From a virus, in the IMG/VR virus record IMGVR_UViG_3300044809_000011, positions 1-21,396 of that record: DNA of 21,396 bases; one strand, given 5' to 3'. The notes below the pieces were generated by a model. The model worked only from the letters and a program-made list of their open reading frames with translations. It searched no databases and was not told the DNA's origin. Both the position numbers and the translations under genes were made by a program. This document shows positions 2,707 to 21,396 of this stretch, one piece after another. Positions within the stretch are counted from its first letter, which is position 1. The number at the start of each line of letters is the position of its first letter.

Positions 2707-3648
2707 TTAAGCCTCTTTGATCGCGAAGTAGTCGGTCTGGGTAGTTCTGAAAACATTCGGTACCACATAGTGAGCGACTCCGCCGATCGTCACCGTATTT
2801 TCCGCAGCATTCGAAAATCCCGTCACCGCGAAAATCCCATCGAGCTCGCCGTACACATTTGGAGACGCATCAGTGAGAATGATGGGAAGCAGCACGTATC
2901 CGCCGCCCAAATTATCGCGGAGATCAGAAGCTTGATTATTTCCCCAATTTCCATACGGCCAAACTTTCCCTCGATTCGATCCAAAGGCCGGCTCAACCGA
3001 TCGATCGAATCCCATCCAGAAACCATCCGGACGACGCAATCGCAAACTGCTTCCCCACAATCCGGATACGCTGCGCTGCGGGGCGGGACAATTCGCCATC
3101 TCATTCCCGGCGTAACTCCATCTCCATCGCGCGTCCGTCGCTGCGGGTTCCGCGCCATCCCACGCCATCGATCCTCCGACAACGATCGGCGATGGAAACG
3201 CGCCAGGAGCCATATAGGACTGCAAATATCCTATATACGCGACGACGTACACCGTCGAAATTTTCGCGAGAATAATCGCCCGCCGCCCCGTCGCATAGAA
3301 CCGATATGGAATCGACGCGTTCCAACAATTCAAAACCGGAGACGACTGCGACCCCGATACCGCGCCCAGAAATCCCGCCTGCGCTTCAAACGCCAGGGAA
3401 GAATCGAACGCGCCGAACGCGCCTAATCTCCAGTTGTAATAATCCGCGCCCACGTTCGAAAACGCTTTCGCCCCAAGGATCAGAGGATCAGCCGGAGAAC
3501 CTAGCGATCCAGGCGCAGTCCAGATATATTCCGTCGAGGTCGCTCGATTCGCCGTCCATGCGTTTCCGCCCGCAAGTCCGGTGACGAACGTATTGAACAG
3601 CGCCATTAAATTTAGATAATCCGTCGCCGTTCCGTTTGCCGTTGCCAT
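2707..3648 (-). CDS. Tail protein A, 313 aa
   Basis: ATG 3648 directly follows the TAG (3651-3649) of a 56-residue ORF, so translation is probably coupled. The protein starts MATANGTATDYLNLMALFNT and has segments typical of a conserved siphophage tail protein: 'GADYYNWRLGAFGAFDSSL', an 'IPYRFYATGRRAIILAK' core, and 'VYVVAYIGYLQSYMAPG' followed by 'PSPIVVGGSMAW'. It ends 'TDYFAIKEA'. There is no catalytic motif. It shares its overall plan with the next gene and may be an old duplicate of it. I infer a structural part of the distal tail from its place between the tape measure and the large tail-tip gene. Confidence 0.75.
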   Translation of the reverse strand: MATANGTATDYLNLMALFNTFVTGLAGGNAWTANRATSTEYIWTAPGSLGSPADPLILGAKAFSNVGADYYNWRLGAFGAFDSSLAFEAQAGFLGAVSGSQSSPVLNCWNASIPYRFYATGRRAIILAKISTVYVVAYIGYLQSYMAPGAFPSPIVVGGSMAWDGAEPAATDARWRWSYAGNEMANCPAPQRSVSGLWGSSLRLRRPDGFWMGFDRSVEPAFGSNRGKVWPYGNWGNNQASDLRDNLGGGYVLLPIILTDASPNVYGELDGIFAVTGFSNAAENTVTIGGVAHYVVPNVFRTTQTDYFAIKEA

Positions 3649-3821: not shown

Positions 3822-6788
3822 TTACTGACTCCTTCCGATCGCTTTCGCCGCGCCTTTCGGATTATTCGCAAGATGGGAGACGACAACTTTTCCCGCCGCG
3901 TCCGACTTGAGATGTTTTAGCACGATCCCTTCATCGAGCCCGACTTGCAGATGGACGGAATGCGACGACGACGCTCCGCCCGTTCCGCCAACAAGCCCGC
4001 CGTGCGCGAATTGCGCCACCGGTGCCGCGTGAATCATTTTCCCGACGTTGAATCCGCGGTTCATGCTGGATAACGTCGCCACGCCGATCGCCCTCACCGC
4101 CGCCGCGCGCATGACGAACTCACCCGTCGAGAGACGCGCGGGGATCGAATCCGACGTTCCCGTCCCTGGCCCGAGGATCAATCCGCCTTCCGCCGCCCCG
4201 CCCCCGCCGCCGCCGCCCGACGCGTTCGCGATCAACATCGTATCCGCCGCCACCTGGAGTTGCGCCGCCGCGACTTCGATCGCCGTCGCGCCCGCCAACA
4301 ACGTCGCCCCCGTCGCCGTTAACGTCGCCGCGCCCGTTACGAGGGACGTACCGCCCGCGACGATCTCCGTTCCCGCCGCCGCCAACGCCGTCGCCGCCGC
4401 TGTCAAAGGGGCCGCCTGGGCCGTTCCCGCCGCCGCCGACGACGCGATCTTCGTCGCCGGATTATCGTTCGCGCTCAGGCCGGGGATCGCCTTCAATAAT
4501 TTCTGCGTCGCGATCTGGGCCAACATCCCCCCGACGATCTTTCGCAACGATCCTGTAATCGAATCCGCTAGTCCCGCGAACGCCTGCCCCAACGTCCTCG
4601 CGCCAATGATCCCCGTATCGAAGAATGATTCGAACGATCCCTGCAAACCCTGCTGAAATCCGCCTTTGATTTTCGCGAGGTCTTTCGCCGCGTCGTTCGC
4701 TTCAAGCTCGATCTGTGACACCGATCGCTTGAAGTCCAACGCCTGCTGGATATTCGCTTCGTTGCCCGTCGCCTTCGCCGACGCGAGCTGGGCGTCCGCG
4801 ATTTTATTCAGATTCGCGAGACGCGACGCGTCGAGATCGCGGAGTTGTTCATCCGCCTGAATCTGGAAAATCTGTCCCGACTGGACGCGCAACTCGATCG
4901 CCGCTCGATCGTCCGCGAGAGATTTCAGCGCGTCTTCGCCCGCTTTACGCTGATCGGTGAACGTCGCCGCCGCCGCCGTCAGGTCCTTGTACTGCTGAAT
5001 TTGAACTTCGATTTCCGGATTTCCCGCGCCAAGCTGTGAAGTCAGCAAGAGACGGAATTCCGCTTCCTTCGCGTCCGCCTCGATCTTCGCCGCTTCCGCC
5101 GTCTTCCCCTGGATATCGAGAATCGTTTTCCGGAATGCCGTCAGCTTTTGCAACTGATCCTGCTCGGCCTTATATCGAGCGAGATCCTGTTGGACTAACT
5201 TTGTTTTTCCCGCTTCCTCCGTTACTTGGATTTTCGTATCGAGCGCCGCGATCGCTTCTTTCGCCTTGATGACAGACTGCTGATCCTTCGCCGCCGCCGC
5301 TGAAAATTCCTGCCCTACCGGCGTATCGACGCCCGCCTTTGTCGCCTTCGCTCGATTCCCGCGCGCCTCCGATTGGAATCGATCGGCTAACTTTTGCTCG
5401 TTCGATTTCTCCGCCTGCAGCGCCGCCAACTCTTCTCGATTCCCCTGCTCGATCTCGACTTTTCGCGCTGCGTAATAATCACGTAACGACAGCAGTCCGC
5501 GTTCGAACTCCGATTGAGCGACCGCCTCGCGTTGATTCGCGAACGCTTTCTCGATCTCCACGTCCGCAAGAAGCTGTTTATTTTTTCCCTCGATCGTGAG
5601 ACGGAACAGTTCGTCGGCCTGCTGCTGCGCCTTGAGCGCGCCTTTCGTCGCTTCGTCGTTCTGGATCGGGGGATTCTTCGCGCGTTTCGCGTTCGCATCA
5701 TCGATCCGCGCTTTCGCTTCGTCCTGCTCGCGGTGAAGGCCCTGAAGCTCCGCGATCGCCGCATCCTCGCGCGATTGAAAGAAATCATCGATCCGCTTGT
5801 AATCCGCCTGCGTGTTAGCGCTCAACAAACGATTCGCTTCCGCAAATCCTTTCGTGAACGTGTCCGCCGCCGCACGCCCGAGATTCTGAATATCCGCCGA
5901 GCCCTTCGCGAATGCGCGCCCGATCGTATCCACGAATCCGATCGCGATCGTCGCGATCTCGCGGAATACGTCGCCCGCGACTTGCCCCATTTTTCTGAAT
6001 CCCGAGACGCCCTCGCCCGTCGTCGCCGCGAGGATCGCGTTCGCCACGTCCGTCAACGCTGGAACGATTCCCGCTTCGAATTGCCGCGCCGCGCCTTCCG
6101 CCGCCGCCTCGAGGTCCTTGAGCGCCGCCTGCGTGATAAGCAAATCCCGCGCGGTATCCGTCGTCAGCAGGTTCCCGAATTTTTCCGCTTCTTCCCGCGC
6201 GTGATCGAATCCGTCGCCCGCGAGATTCGTCATCGCGTTGATCGTCGCGCCCGTCGCGTCGCCCAACAATTTCGACGCCGCCGCTGTTTTCTGGAATCCA
6301 GGAGGCAGTGCGCCCAACGCGTCCGTTACCTTGCGGATTTTCTGATCGGAATTTAATCCGATGAAATCCTTCGTCGAGAGTCCGACGAGCGCGAGGGATT
6401 TCGCCGCTTTCTGATTTCCCTGCTCCGACTGGGTGATGACCGTCGATAATTTCCCGAGCGACGCCTGCATATCGCCGACTTCGCCGCCCGCATCCTTCAC
6501 CGCCTGCGCGTAAACGGAGATCGTCTCCGTCGAGATTCCCGTTACCTGGGAGAGCCGCGCGATCTTGACGCCCGATTGGAAAACTTCGTTTCCGAATTCG
6601 GCCAGCTTTTCGACCGCGAGAATTTCGATAAACCCCTGGAACGCCTCTTTCAAACCCTTCGTCGAATCCGCGACTTCTTTTTCTTTGGATTTGAGCGTCT
6701 GCAACTGCGCGATGAGTTGCTTGATCGCCGCCGCGACTCCGCCGTCTTCCGCTGTTATTTTTACTTTTACGTCTGGGGCGTCAGCCAT
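3822..6788 (-). CDS. Tail tape measure protein, 988 aa
   Basis: This is the longest gene in the window and lies directly after the tail-assembly chaperones, where siphophages carry the tape measure that sets tail length and passes into the host envelope. Residues 1-50 form a charged helix. Residues about 60-260 carry the usual Ala/Gly/Ser-rich segment ('LSQVTGISTETISVYAQAV', 'LLGDATGATINAMTNLAG'). A hydrophobic patch ('IATIAIGFVDTIGRAF') follows, then long charged coiled coil from roughly 320 to 700. A second hydrophobic stretch ('LADSITGSLRKIVGGMLAQ') leads to a regular Ala/Thr/Leu heptad region (about 795-851) and a run of seven Gly (about 858-864). The C-terminus has the common 'GGLILGPGTGTSDSIPARLS' and 'GEFVMRAAAVRAIG' motif. 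No lysozyme or peptidase domain is evident. Confidence 0.93.
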   Translation of the reverse strand: MADAPDVKVKITAEDGGVAAAIKQLIAQLQTLKSKEKEVADSTKGLKEAFQGFIEILAVEKLAEFGNEVFQSGVKIARLSQVTGISTETISVYAQAVKDAGGEVGDMQASLGKLSTVITQSEQGNQKAAKSLALVGLSTKDFIGLNSDQKIRKVTDALGALPPGFQKTAAASKLLGDATGATINAMTNLAGDGFDHAREEAEKFGNLLTTDTARDLLITQAALKDLEAAAEGAARQFEAGIVPALTDVANAILAATTGEGVSGFRKMGQVAGDVFREIATIAIGFVDTIGRAFAKGSADIQNLGRAAADTFTKGFAEANRLLSANTQADYKRIDDFFQSREDAAIAELQGLHREQDEAKARIDDANAKRAKNPPIQNDEATKGALKAQQQADELFRLTIEGKNKQLLADVEIEKAFANQREAVAQSEFERGLLSLRDYYAARKVEIEQGNREELAALQAEKSNEQKLADRFQSEARGNRAKATKAGVDTPVGQEFSAAAAKDQQSVIKAKEAIAALDTKIQVTEEAGKTKLVQQDLARYKAEQDQLQKLTAFRKTILDIQGKTAEAAKIEADAKEAEFRLLLTSQLGAGNPEIEVQIQQYKDLTAAAATFTDQRKAGEDALKSLADDRAAIELRVQSGQIFQIQADEQLRDLDASRLANLNKIADAQLASAKATGNEANIQQALDFKRSVSQIELEANDAAKDLAKIKGGFQQGLQGSFESFFDTGIIGARTLGQAFAGLADSITGSLRKIVGGMLAQIATQKLLKAIPGLSANDNPATKIASSAAAGTAQAAPLTAAATALAAAGTEIVAGGTSLVTGAATLTATGATLLAGATAIEVAAAQLQVAADTMLIANASGGGGGGGAAEGGLILGPGTGTSDSIPARLSTGEFVMRAAAVRAIGVATLSSMNRGFNVGKMIHAAPVAQFAHGGLVGGTGGASSSHSVHLQVGLDEGIVLKHLKSDAAGKVVVSHLANNPKGAAKAIGRSQ
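4236..4406 (-). repeat. Degenerate heptad repeat inside the tape measure gene
   Basis: Residues about 795-851 can be written as eight consecutive seven-residue units with Ala/Gly at positions 1-2 and Leu/Ile/Met at position 5, for example 'GAATLTA', 'GATAIEV', 'AAAQLQV'. The periodicity is exact in length. A rigid helical rod or bundle segment of the tape measure is likely. The run of Gly codons follows a few residues downstream. Confidence 0.7.
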
Positions 6789-17139: not shown

Positions 17140-19038
17140 TTAGCTAACGCCTGGGTTTCTGACCGATCGCACGGGGGTATTTTCCGACACTTCGATTTTA
17201 TTTTCGCTCAACAAATCCGCCCGCACTTTCAACTCGCGCAATGTCTGCGCGCCCAACGAATAAAGCGCCGCGAGCGCATAGACCTCCAGGTCGAGCGCCT
17301 CGTTTCGCGTTCGCGTCTTAATGTACTCGCGGATCGCTCCGCGTCCCTTTCGATATCTCCGCACGGCTTTTTCCGCCGTCAACTGCGCGAGATATTCATC
17401 GTCGATCCAATCCGGGAGATGCATGTATCCAGGACCGCTCGCGGGGATTTTCATTCGCGCGAAGATTCGATCTTTCGCCGTATCCGTTCCGATCATCCAC
17501 AATTTTATTTTGTATTGATTGTTCAGTGAATATTTTCCAAGGATTTCCTTCCCCGCCTCGCTCGATCCTTTCAAAGCCCACACTCGCCGATTCTGCCGCG
17601 CCTTCACGAATCGGTACACCGAATCGGAATGCGATCCCCCCGAGTCGATCATCGTCGCGCGAATGTTCGTCGTCGCTCCACTGTCATGCGTGAACGGATG
17701 CAGCAGAAATTCGTCCAACTCTTCCCATACCGCCTCCTGCCCTGGATCACCGAAGAATTGCTGATACGCGACGAGCCAGGATTCCTCGCGATCGCCCCAT
17801 CCCTTGACGACAGCTTCGATTCGGTCGTTCTGCACGTCCGCCGACGCCGTGAGAATCCCTACGCCCTTCGGTACGTCCGCCTTATATTTTTCCACGCGCG
17901 CGCGCAGCGCCGAATGCTCAACCGCTTCCGAATCCTCTTCCCACGTCTCGCCCAATCGAAGATTGATAAACGCTTTCAACTTTTCCGGATTTCGCTCGAC
18001 CGCCGTCGCCTCGTGCCACTCCGCCGCGAGCGCCGGCCACAATTCCCGCCACGGCGAATACAACGCGTTCAAACTGAATCCGACGATCTCGCGATCCGGA
18101 AATTTCGCGATCCACTTCCCTCCGTTCAACATCTGCTGTTTATACCGCTCAGGAATTCTCTGCTTACATCCCGCGCAGATATACGCGACTGATTCCGCGA
18201 CGATCGATCCGTCGTCGCGCACTTCATAAGTCAGCCGATATTCTTTCGTTAGGGGATCGCGCCATTCTAGAGGTTGCATCTTCTGGCAGAACGGGCACGG
18301 CACATGGAAATATCTCTGATCCGACTTTAGAAAATCTCTCTCGATCGGTGAAACGCCTTTCGGTTTCGCTGGCGTCGATCCCTTGATGTGCTTCCAATCC
18401 GAGAACGCATCCGACCGCCGCGCCGCGATCGCCTGCGGATCGCCTTCGCCGTCCACGTCCAGGGGATACGCGTCTACTTCGTCGTAAAGAATTATCGGCA
18501 CCGGATCGGATCGCAACCCCGCGCCCGAGTTCGCGCCCGTCAATTTCAGAAATCCACCAGGGAATTCTTTCAGGGACAGCGTGTTCCCAGCCTTTCGCGA
18601 AGTCGCGGGCCGGATCGCCGCGCGGAGACTCGGCGTCGATTCGATCATCGGCGTGATGCGCTTCTTGCCGTAATCCTTCGCGTTGTCGATCGTGGGCTGA
18701 ATCATCATGATCGGTTTTGGATCAGCGGAAATGTAGTAACCGATTATTGAATTCAGGACCGCTTCGCTGTATCCGACCTGAGTGCTTTTTTTGATAACGA
18801 CTTCATGAACGTTCGGCGAGAGGATCGCGTTCATCATTTCGATTTGAAATACTTCCGGATGGAACGGGCCAGGGCGTGACGTCGTTCCTTTCTGCAGGAC
18901 GCGATTCCGCATCGCCCATTCCGAGATCGTGATATCGCTCGGAGGCCGAAAGAGATCAAACGATTCGCGGATTATTCTTCCGAGGCTACTTCCTTGATGG
19001 GTAATTACTTCCATCGTCCGCCAATTGGTTGAGGGCAT
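17140..19038 (-). CDS. Terminase large subunit, GpA family, 632 aa
   Basis: This is the packaging ATPase and nuclease. Features in order: 'DLFRPPSDITISEWAMRNR' (28-46) as in lambda gpA; a Walker A-like 'KKSTQVGYSEA' (about 83-93); Walker B 'PIILYDEVDAYP' (about 181-192); zinc-type pairs CPFC (248-251) and CAGC (288-291); and a C-terminal RNase H-like nuclease with 'LTASADVQNDRIEAVVKGWG' and 'ATMIDSGGSHSDSVYRF' supplying acidic residues. Length matches gpA (641). The first ATG (19038) overlaps TerS by 53 bases. An ATG at 19014 (MEVITHQGSS) would overlap by 29, and neither has a decisive ribosome site. GpA-type enzymes suggest cos-like or lambda-like cutting, but no cos site is identifiable here. 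Confidence 0.95.
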   Translation of the reverse strand: MPSTNWRTMEVITHQGSSLGRIIRESFDLFRPPSDITISEWAMRNRVLQKGTTSRPGPFHPEVFQIEMMNAILSPNVHEVVIKKSTQVGYSEAVLNSIIGYYISADPKPIMMIQPTIDNAKDYGKKRITPMIESTPSLRAAIRPATSRKAGNTLSLKEFPGGFLKLTGANSGAGLRSDPVPIILYDEVDAYPLDVDGEGDPQAIAARRSDAFSDWKHIKGSTPAKPKGVSPIERDFLKSDQRYFHVPCPFCQKMQPLEWRDPLTKEYRLTYEVRDDGSIVAESVAYICAGCKQRIPERYKQQMLNGGKWIAKFPDREIVGFSLNALYSPWRELWPALAAEWHEATAVERNPEKLKAFINLRLGETWEEDSEAVEHSALRARVEKYKADVPKGVGILTASADVQNDRIEAVVKGWGDREESWLVAYQQFFGDPGQEAVWEELDEFLLHPFTHDSGATTNIRATMIDSGGSHSDSVYRFVKARQNRRVWALKGSSEAGKEILGKYSLNNQYKIKLWMIGTDTAKDRIFARMKIPASGPGYMHLPDWIDDEYLAQLTAEKAVRRYRKGRGAIREYIKTRTRNEALDLEVYALAALYSLGAQTLRELKVRADLLSENKIEVSENTPVRSVRNPGVS

Positions 19039-19474
19039 CTTTGATCGCCTGCTCGATCTTCGCCTGGATCATCACCCGCGATCCCTCGCCCATCACTTCG
19101 ACCGCGAGACGCGGAGGCACCGCCAGCAGTCGCGCCTTCGTCATCAACACTAGATCAGACAGCGCCGCGCGAACATCAGCCAGCTTTGCCGTCTGCCCCC
19201 TTTTTAACGCGAGCTCCATTTCTTTCAACTCCGCATCCGCGCGCAATCCGCGAACGCGCTGATCGTTCAATCCCAGGAATTCTCCGCCGCCGACGTTCGC
19301 AGATTTTTTCTCGACTAAATCCTGGAGATACCGGATGTACCACAGCATGCACGCGCCGAGGTCGTACTGACCGCGCGCTTGGCGGGGCATTCCCTCTTTC
19401 ACAAGTTGCTGGATTCGCCGCGTGTCCCGATTGAATGCCTTGGCGAGTTTCTCGACGTTGACGAGTGTCGCCAT
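18986..19474 (-). CDS. Terminase small subunit, Nu1-like, 162 aa
   Basis: ATG 19474 directly follows the TAA (19477-19475) of the upstream gene. Residues 1-50 form a winged helix-turn-helix of the Nu1 type: 'VNVEKLAKAFNRDTRRIQQL' then 'VKEGMPRQARGQYDLGACM', with the typical 'GmP....g.yDl' wing. A linker 'LNDQRVRGLRADAELKEMEL' and helix 'ALKRGQTAKLADVRAALSDL' resemble the Nu1 dimer and TerL-contact part. It would recognise the viral packaging site and load TerL. The gene end overlaps the TerL start. Length is close to lambda Nu1 (181). Confidence 0.87.
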   Translation of the reverse strand: MATLVNVEKLAKAFNRDTRRIQQLVKEGMPRQARGQYDLGACMLWYIRYLQDLVEKKSANVGGGEFLGLNDQRVRGLRADAELKEMELALKRGQTAKLADVRAALSDLVLMTKARLLAVPPRLAVEVMGEGSRVMIQAKIEQAIKDALNQLADDGSNYPSRK

Positions 19475-19711
19475 TTATTCTTTCGGTAAAACTTGCGCGA
19501 ACGTGCCGAACTGCGAGAGAAAAGTTTTCAGCGCATCGATCGCGCCGCGCGGGATCAGGCAGTGTCCCGTCGTTTTCAAAGCCAGGAGAACGTCGTCCAG
19601 GTCCTCAGTGCATCGATCGACATCGAAACGCTTTTCCCTGCGAAGGTGGATCAGGACCGCTAACAGGATGACGTGTTCTTCTGGCCGGATTACTTCGGGC
19701 GACTTCTCCAT
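19475..19711 (-). CDS. Unknown small protein, 78 aa
   Basis: ATG 19711 starts 3 bases after the TAA of the glycosyltransferase-like gene, and its TAA abuts the TerS ATG, so it belongs to the same transcript. The sequence is MEKSPEVIRPEEHVILLAVL followed by 'IHLRREKRFDVDRCTEDLDD', 'VLLALKTTGHCLIPRGAIDA' and 'LKTFLSQFGTFAQVLPKE'. It looks like a small soluble helical protein with no cysteine cluster, signal peptide or known motif. Location before TerS is often used by packaging or host-takeover helpers. I do not recognise it. Confidence 0.65.
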   Translation of the reverse strand: MEKSPEVIRPEEHVILLAVLIHLRREKRFDVDRCTEDLDDVLLALKTTGHCLIPRGAIDALKTFLSQFGTFAQVLPKE

Positions 19712-19714
19712 GAC

Positions 19715-20503
19715 TTACACCCCAGGGATCGGTATATGAATTATCGGGTTATAGTCGAAACCTTTCGACTTATTTTCCCGCATGTGCGCCTTCCGCCCCG
19801 TGTCGATCTTGACGATCGTCGATCCCCATTTCATTTGTAGGGCGAACAACTGCGCTTTCTCCCGCTCCATATTCCGATACGTCGCGCATCCGCCGCGCTG
19901 CTCCGACTGCCGCGCCATGTAATACGCCTTGTTCACCCGCAACGTGCAGCGATATTTATTCAGATGCTGGAGCGAGAAATCGTAATCCTCTTTCAGCGGC
20001 AAATTTTCGTCGTATCGAAGCGCGCATCCCCGCATGATCGCCTGGAAAGGCCCGCCGATATACGCCGTCATCGAGAACGGGGTGTACTCGCGATAACACG
20101 CCTTGTCGTTGTTGACGTTCAATCCCCACAGGAACGCCCCGAGATCGCGCGCCATGATGGAATATTTCTCGACGAATCCGAGGAACACTTTCGTCTCGAC
20201 GCGAATCCTCGCAGGCTTCACCGCGTCGCCTTTCTGCCAATAATAAATTCCCTCGAGGTCGTCATCGACGATCAGGCAGACATCCGCTCCGGACCGCAGT
20301 TCCCGATCGATGATGTGATTCCGCACACGACAAAGATTCCCCTGCACGCCTTTCGCGCACTCGACGATCGTCACGCCTGGATTCGCGCGCCGATATTCCT
20401 TCGCTTCACTGGGATCGACATACACGCGAACGAACGGAAGATAGGCCGGGGTTTCGCATCCAGAGGGCCGCTTATAAGACGGGGCGCAAACCGCAATCCT
20501 CAT
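19715..20503 (-). CDS. GT-A-like glycosyltransferase, candidate DNA-base glycosyltransferase, 262 aa
   Basis: I choose ATG 20503 (MRIAVCAPSYKRP), which overlaps the TGA of a 38-residue ORF. A GTG 24 bases upstream is less natural because it adds eight residues before the first strand. Features: an N-terminal nucleotide-sugar strand 'IAVCAPSYKRP' (3-13); 'RVYVDPSEAKEY' (27-38); 'GVQGNLCRVRNHIID' (52-66); an acidic 'CLIVDDDLEGIYYW' (76-89) with DDD at 80-82 as metal-binding DxD; 'GGPFQAIMRGCALRYDENLP' (150-169); and 'KEDYDFSLQHL' (171-181) as the second acidic site. This order is that of GT-A enzymes, and the style recalls the phage TET-associated glycosyltransferase group. The acceptor could be modified DNA, a virion protein or a host glycan. 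Fold confidence is moderate; the substrate is unknown. Confidence 0.6.
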   Translation of the reverse strand: MRIAVCAPSYKRPSGCETPAYLPFVRVYVDPSEAKEYRRANPGVTIVECAKGVQGNLCRVRNHIIDRELRSGADVCLIVDDDLEGIYYWQKGDAVKPARIRVETKVFLGFVEKYSIMARDLGAFLWGLNVNNDKACYREYTPFSMTAYIGGPFQAIMRGCALRYDENLPLKEDYDFSLQHLNKYRCTLRVNKAYYMARQSEQRGGCATYRNMEREKAQLFALQMKWGSTIVKIDTGRKAHMRENKSKGFDYNPIIHIPIPGV

Positions 20504-20616
20504 CGGGGAAGGATAATTCCGAGCCACAGCACGCCGTAATGCACGCTGTTCGAATACTGCATCCGATCGAACGCCTTCGCGATGCGCGGGTACCAGTGCC
20601 GAAAATAAATCGTCAT
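20500..20616 (-). CDS. Possible 38-aa protein upstream of the glycosyltransferase-like gene
   Basis: The frame starts at ATG 20616, 4 bases after the preceding TGA, with GGAGG 11 bases upstream, and its TGA overlaps the next ATG (ATGA). The product is MTIYFRHWYPRIAKAFDRMQ then 'YSNSVHYGVLWLGIILPR', basic and aromatic with a hydrophobic end. The overlaps at both ends support it. It is too short to recognise and might only serve translational coupling. Confidence 0.45.
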   Translation of the reverse strand: MTIYFRHWYPRIAKAFDRMQYSNSVHYGVLWLGIILPR

Positions 20617-20620
20617 GTGA

Positions 20621-20782
20621 TCAATCGCCTCCGCGCCGAAATAGATAGACCACCACGCACACGATCACCACGACCCCGAAAAATCCGAATCCAGGGCCGG
20701 GGCCGTAATGCGAATAGCCGTAGTACCCGCCGCCGCCGCCGAAAAGCAGAATGAGCAAGATGATCAGTAATAGTAGATTCAT
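20621..20782 (-). CDS. Gly-rich membrane miniprotein, 53 aa
   Basis: ATG 20782 overlaps the TGA of the ParB-like gene (ATGA). The product has a hydrophobic start 'MNLLLLIILLILLF', a 'GGGGGYYGYSHYGPGPGFG' loop, a second hydrophobic run 'FFGVVVIVCVVVYLF' and a basic end RRGGD. Two short membrane helices joined by a Gly/Tyr loop are likely. The plan resembles small DUF3309-type proteins found in bacteria and phages, though I cannot assign it. A longer frame in phase from 20950 is only overlap with the ParB-like gene. Function is unknown; membrane placement in a late phage transcript leaves lysis-related roles open, without evidence. Confidence 0.65.
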   Translation of the reverse strand: MNLLLLIILLILLFGGGGGYYGYSHYGPGPGFGFFGVVVIVCVVVYLFRRGGD

Positions 20783-21396
20783 TTTTTCCCCCGCTTCCTC
20801 GAACTCTCGATCGCGCCCGCCGATCTCTGGATCAACGTAATCGCGTCGTTCCCTTTTACCACGCGCCCGACGCCCGCCGACATAAATCCATCCCGCGCGT
20901 GCAACGCCTTCACCGTTGGCAACTCCACGATCGAAAGAAAATTCAGCCAATCGACGCTGTTATCGAAATACAGAACGACGAAGTTATGCTCCTCCAGTAA
21001 CTCTTCCGTGAACGCGACTTCCGCTTTCGGTTCCTCGCCGCCCGCATCGTCGAGATCGATCGACGCCGCGAGCTCCGCCAGGACTGGATCGACCGATCGC
21101 TGCTCGAAATGCACTTCGTTCAAGAGGGATTCGAGAATATCCGGCTTCGCCTTCGCCATCGCGCCGATTGAATTCAGCGTGACGATAATTTTGTTTTCGT
21201 CCGACTTCGAAACTGAAATGTAATCCACGGGCACGGTTTTTTCTTCGCGCCGCATCGCCTCTTGTACGCGGAGATGTCCGTCCACAATGTGGCCCGTTTT
21301 TTCGTTAACGATGATTTTCTGCACCCATCCGAGTTCGTCCAGGATGCCGACCATCGCCTCGGTCTGCGCTTTCTGGTGCACGCGCCAATTGAACGG
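20779..21396 (-). CDS. ParB/sulfiredoxin-fold domain protein, 5' end outside window
   Basis: The frame is open to the window edge. Its first visible residues, PFNWRVHQKAQTEAM, match the 'NPRNWR.H...Q' entry of the ParB-like nuclease domain, so the GTG at 21381 is internal and the true start is upstream. The core follows: 'ILDELGWVQKIIVN', then 'TGHIVDGHLRVQEAMRR' with the GHLR signature, then 'VDYISVSKSDENKIIVTLNS'. A second part has 'EEHNFVVLYFDNSVDWLNFL' and 'FMSAGVGRVVKGNDAI'. I recall the same two-part arrangement in phage proteins near terminase genes. ParB-fold domains bind or hydrolyse CTP or act as nucleases; here a role in genome packaging, partition or modification is inferred. At least 205 residues are present. 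Confidence 0.82.
   Translation of the reverse strand, partial: PFNWRVHQKAQTEAMVGILDELGWVQKIIVNEKTGHIVDGHLRVQEAMRREEKTVPVDYISVSKSDENKIIVTLNSIGAMAKAKPDILESLLNEVHFEQRSVDPVLAELAASIDLDDAGGEEPKAEVAFTEELLEEHNFVVLYFDNSVDWLNFLSIVELPTVKALHARDGFMSAGVGRVVKGNDAITLIQRSAGAIESSRKRGKK

Follow-up and report, generated by a model that had tools for sequence, protein, structure and literature searches.

What does a TET-associated glycosyltransferase (TAGT), encoded by a phage between a ParB-like gene and the terminase genes, add its sugar to? We addressed this question for a locus in an IMG/VR record that is exactly 21396 bases long (the window) and ends inside the ParB-like gene. The record is probably a fragment of the phage genome, and therefore holds nothing past base 21396. 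A sequence-only reading of the window had proposed that the virion DNA is glycosylated and had described the locus as a closely packed run with two miniproteins. The close packing held, with ATGA overlaps and a 53-base overlap between the genes for the small (TerS) and large (TerL) terminase subunits, but we counted three mini-ORFs rather than two. The locus lies on the minus strand and starts with the ParB-like gene (20779–21396), whose N-terminal part is cut by the contig end. Its stop overlaps as ATGA (20779–20782) with the gene for a small hydrophobic, DUF3309-like protein of 53 residues (20621–20782; PF11752, 29.8 bits); a similar small ORF occupies this position in L002, the closest relative (97% identity). 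A short ORF of about 37 residues (20500–20616), read from the sequence, shares an ATGA with the start of the TAGT gene (19715–20503) and was not seen when the window was compared with L002. An ORF of 78 residues without a Pfam or PHROG match (19475–19711) stands between the TAGT gene and TerS (18986–19474; PHROG 57, E = 1.1e-28), which is followed by a GpA-type TerL (17140–19038; PF05876 and PF20454). Elsewhere in the window, two adjacent genes (1672–2703 and 2707–3648) both match the structural family PHROG 687, which points to a tandem duplication; a tape-measure-like protein with an endolysin-like stretch at its C-terminal end is encoded at 3822–6788; and the GC content reaches up to 64% at 4–5 kb.

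Judged by its sequence, the 262-residue product of the gene at 19715–20503 is a bona fide TAGT. The minus-strand ORF is intact from its ATG at 20503 to its stop at 19715, and it carries the features read earlier from the letters: APSYKR near the start, DDD at 80–82 and KEDYD at 171–175. Comparison with the TAGT profile, as the sequence-only reading had suggested, gave a PF20691 match of 53 bits (E = 5.5e-14) against a curated cut-off of 27.5 bits. The protein also matched PHROG 842 with 66 bits (E = 7.7e-18), a family whose namesake is the T-even enzyme that adds glucose to hmC already bearing a glucose. TAGT was its sole Pfam match at E ≤ 1; no cell-wall or capsule glycosyltransferase family scored in Pfam. 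A best match of that kind had been named among the outcomes that would speak against the proposal. The AlphaFold model (pLDDT 89) has a GT-A fold with a conserved acidic motif and a GG-x4-R region. Its Foldseek matches are generic GT-A enzymes, protein glycosyltransferases among them, and do not indicate the acceptor; a sequence search against solved structures gave zero matches. The active-site pattern of D80-D81-D82, D173, GG at 204–205, R210, R12 and R61 is common to the ParB-linked clade described below and to TET-linked TAGTs, and the T6 TAGT has D80-D81, D173, GG, R210, R12 and R61 of it. In the one pair compared, window against L002, dN/dS was 0.036 for TAGT and 0.045 for TerS, which indicates strong purifying selection on TAGT, comparable to that on TerS. 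The ORF is not a chance one, because it has Pfam and PHROG matches, relatives in many viral contigs and this low dN/dS. Sugar transfer from a nucleotide-sugar donor is predicted.

We searched for an enzyme that could supply a modified base. The Pfam profile PF12851 detects the TET of the positive control S-CBWM1 and scores those of Acadian and Altadena below its cut-off; we therefore built a dedicated TET profile, A11, from 80 gathered TET loci. A11 recovered both of its positive controls (420 and 374 bits) and gave no match at E ≤ 1 in 48 records with the ParB–TAGT pair, including two complete phages, Javan291 and Phorgeous. Neither PF12851 nor PF00145 (C5-cytosine methylases, which would supply 5mC) nor PF13640 (2OG-FeII oxygenases) gave a match above its cut-off in the ParB–TAGT records, and PF00303 (thymidylate synthase/hydroxymethylase) was found in 0 of 50. 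No alpha- or beta-glucosyltransferase appeared among the Pfam matches listed for the proteins of the window and Javan291. Most of the records come from metagenomes and are probably incomplete, so the weight of these absences lies in how many records were searched and in the two complete genomes. The TET/JBP or hydroxymethylase partner that the sequence-only reading had looked for upstream or elsewhere was thus not found in the relatives. Since no source of a hydroxylated base turned up, these phages seem to lack the classical acceptor of TAGT.

A TET gene could in principle lie in the same phage genome beyond the contig end. The TET–TAGT operon of Mycobacterium phage Acadian (gp1–gp6) has the same layout, with ParB, TET/JBP, TAGT, a PIG-L deacetylase, TerS and TerL in this order, and the window stops inside ParB. 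However, L002 extends 9 kb upstream without a TET, the 48 related records have none, and the TAGT tree parts TET-linked TAGTs from the ParB-linked clade, save for the long-branch row L235. The profile searches of relatives lead us to reject this explanation; from the sequences, a TET partner just past the window edge is very unlikely, and one anywhere in the genome highly improbable. The window locus resembles the Acadian operon in that ParB comes first, TAGT is present and the run stands directly before the terminase genes, but it differs in having neither TET nor deacetylase, in the C-terminal domain of its ParB and in the separate clade of its TAGT.

We next turned to the neighbours of TAGT across its relatives, gathered by a three-sequence search that used two peptide patterns only; it yielded 329 confirmed viral stretches, and we kept 80 of them. 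Apart from L002, these are 46–64% identical to the window protein. Further relatives were one Streptococcus prophage (Javan291) and 56 Microbacterium phage records, and a profile search with a widened alignment found the ParB–TAGT pair at 11 loci in contigs of bacterial genomes that span several phyla. A ParB-like gene lies upstream of TAGT in every kept locus with upstream DNA, a count that leaves aside L005, a TET phage outside the family. The two genes overlap by 4, 11 or 17 nt at 54 of the 78 junctions measured; in L043 the pair is spaced by 771 bases. A reverse search from the ParB alignment found TAGT after the gene with the ParB tail in 76 of 77 loci, the single remaining one being cut by a contig end. 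The two sets of loci share contigs and are therefore not independent samples, but outside contig ends the pairing has no counter-example. TerL follows within 4 kb downstream at 111 of 126 loci, not all of them on separate contigs, and belongs to one of three families (Terminase_3, Terminase_6 and GpA). This position by the terminase supports a putative late, packaging-linked role. In the TAGT tree the main ParB-linked clade (support 99/99) stands apart from the TET-linked clade (95/86), whereas Quhwahvirus, T6, L235 and Cr30 sit on long branches of unsure placement.

Several relatives have features of their own. The pairs in L028 (9558–10759) and L029 (170–928) have TGA codons in frame precisely where glycines are conserved, which fits TGA read as glycine, as in Absconditabacteria/Gracilibacteria and their phages. 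A Phycisphaerae contig (L094, 2470–3941) has a tandem pair of TAGT genes after ParB; the first is a distant, long-branch sequence that clusters weakly with T6 and possibly makes a second sugar transfer. In L095 a second ParB-like gene without the TAGT-associated tail (3913–4515) directly follows TAGT. In Quhwahvirus phages the ParB–glycosyltransferase pair is directly followed by a partial gene for UDP-glucose dehydrogenase (L004, 8564–9346), which may hint at the sugar donor.

The real invariant partner of TAGT in these loci is the ParB protein with the tail. The ParB-fold protein reported in the first reading is real, though the window copy is truncated; the full-length protein, known from L002, has 238 residues. 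The window copy matches PHROG 498/620 (E~1e-15) and has no match to PF02195 (ParB), and the ParBs of L003 and L004 score above the PF02195 cut-off. The AlphaFold model of a full-length relative matches ParB structures (E 4.8e-06), and the N-terminal fold carries NPR, GHxR and DN motifs; binding of DNA or a nucleotide is predicted. This domain belongs to a phage ParB type known from fusions to methylases. Most of the near-invariant columns fall in the C-terminal tail, which has the motif F-x-EEL-x-EEHNY-x-VLYFDN-x-VDW ... G-x-GRV-x-x-G (alignment A8) and is modelled as strand-helix-strand-helix, with lower confidence there. The tail was found in 0 of 80 TET-operon loci, and homology to the C-terminus of TET-linked ParBs found no support (hhalign probability 0.4%). 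Tail distances correlated with TAGT distances (rho 0.66, n = 50), compared with 0.12 for ParB-domain distances, but without one deep-split clade the values were 0.23 and 0.20, so a single deep split accounts for most of the correlation. At the 26 loci with a Terminase_3-type TerL, ParB-domain distances correlated with TerL distances (rho 0.52) and TAGT distances did not; one clade drives both this result and that for the tail.

ParB domains of this kind occur in three settings: tied to TET, tied to TAGT or fused to methylases. The ParB of TET operons (L185–L264) ends in a distinct C-terminal domain and is encoded ahead of TET at each of the 75 loci whose upstream DNA is present; TAGT turned up at only 16 of the 80 loci. 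The ParB domains closest to that of the window belong to phage ParB–DNA methylase fusions (PHROG 498; FP_Lagaffe), where a methylase domain takes the place of the tail and separate TAGT gene. The same ParB domain, upstream of TET and fused to methylases, thus repeatedly accompanies DNA-modifying enzymes. The ParB domain of the window is 44% identical to those of Stenotrophomonas phages, and the ParBs of Suso and QH16 are probable remnants of ParB–methylase fusions; they are annotated as DNA methylases (L175, 4983–5732; L176, 3986–4717) and have a short end resembling a methylase start. In QH16 an FtsK-like gene and the terminase come after the ParB gene. Two further TET/JBP matches stand under other annotations: Acadian gp2 (L182, 813–1691), annotated as queuine tRNA-ribosyltransferase, matches TET/JBP, and S-CBWM1 gp8 (L005, 3729–5165), annotated as an SNF2 repair protein, has a TET/JBP match inside it and lies beside a TAGT annotated as hypothetical.

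The closest functional precedent is the beta-glucosyl-HMC-alpha-glucosyltransferase of T6, which has PF20691 and the catalytic pattern in common with the window TAGT. The T6 gene adjoins a gene annotated as thymidylate synthase, and T6 has an alpha-glucosyltransferase; in contrast, no thymidylate synthase family gene was found in the ParB–TAGT records, where the ParB partner is fixed. A 2026 study (PMC13216743) names TAGT, places it in the GT-A group next to GT2 and counts solitary TAGT homologues in 288 of 753 phage genomes without an alpha- or beta-glucosyltransferase. Their role is left open there, and the accessible text reports neither a ParB partner nor a terminase position for them; like them, the window TAGT apparently occurs without either glucosyltransferase. 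We found no description of ParB–TAGT pairing and no biochemistry on this clade in a literature search that fell short of key earlier papers, so a prior mention is possible.

We propose that the ParB-like and TAGT genes form an obligate, TET-independent two-gene module. TAGT would move a sugar from its donor to the acceptor, the ParB domain would bind DNA or a nucleotide, and its tail would hold TAGT and steer it to phage DNA for glycosylation before or during packaging, which may shield that DNA from host nucleases. We give such a DNA-directed module an even chance of being correct. The pair is probably a distinct sugar-tagging system, because it belongs to a DNA-decorating family and has the same ParB partner in all checkable relatives but never an oxidising enzyme. 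Of the original proposal, the TAGT assignment holds and the ParB neighbour and terminase position recur across the family, whereas a TET or hydroxymethylase partner is not supported; the virion DNA may nonetheless be glycosylated. A stronger form, which we consider doubtful, makes the pair self-sufficient, with ParB as a targeting or activating subunit and the sugar placed on a base that has not first been hydroxymethylated.

The main rival is that the pair glycosylates a protein, such as the terminase, capsid, portal or ParB itself. A protein acceptor would fit the absence of a base-hydroxylating partner from 48 records, the usual linkage to terminase and head genes, the protein glycosyltransferases among the structural neighbours of TAGT and the capsid glycosylation suspected in other phages (PMC4351075, PMC11256854). 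However, profile and tree put the window TAGT in the family of a T6 member that acts on DNA, as reported in PMC13216743, its partner carries the kind of ParB domain seen with DNA methylases and TET, and the neighbouring head-gene families vary between loci, with three TerL families in use. We regard a protein acceptor as unlikely. Also unlikely, and ranked below it, is a conventional two-step pathway with a hidden first step, in which an unrecognised phage enzyme or the host modifies the base. The T6-type enzyme needs prior modification according to the same study, viral records are probably mostly partial, and N6/N4 methylase genes occur in 10 of 49 records. Yet within 10 kb of the pair no other non-structural family extends beyond a small minority of loci, and a Pfam scan of the 42 proteins of the complete Javan291 showed no other modification enzyme among the matches listed.

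These results tie part of the solitary TAGT class counted in PMC13216743 to a constant partner gene and a typical place in the genome, and they point to tractable hosts, namely the Microbacterium Quhwahvirus phages, the Streptococcus marmotae prophage Javan291 and Bacteroides stercorirosoris DSM 26884. Such hosts make the acceptor question directly testable. Were the pair self-sufficient, it would add a third way of glycosylating DNA to those through TET and through hydroxymethylases. More broadly, our findings suggest ParB domains as a recruiting element shared among phage DNA-modification enzymes.
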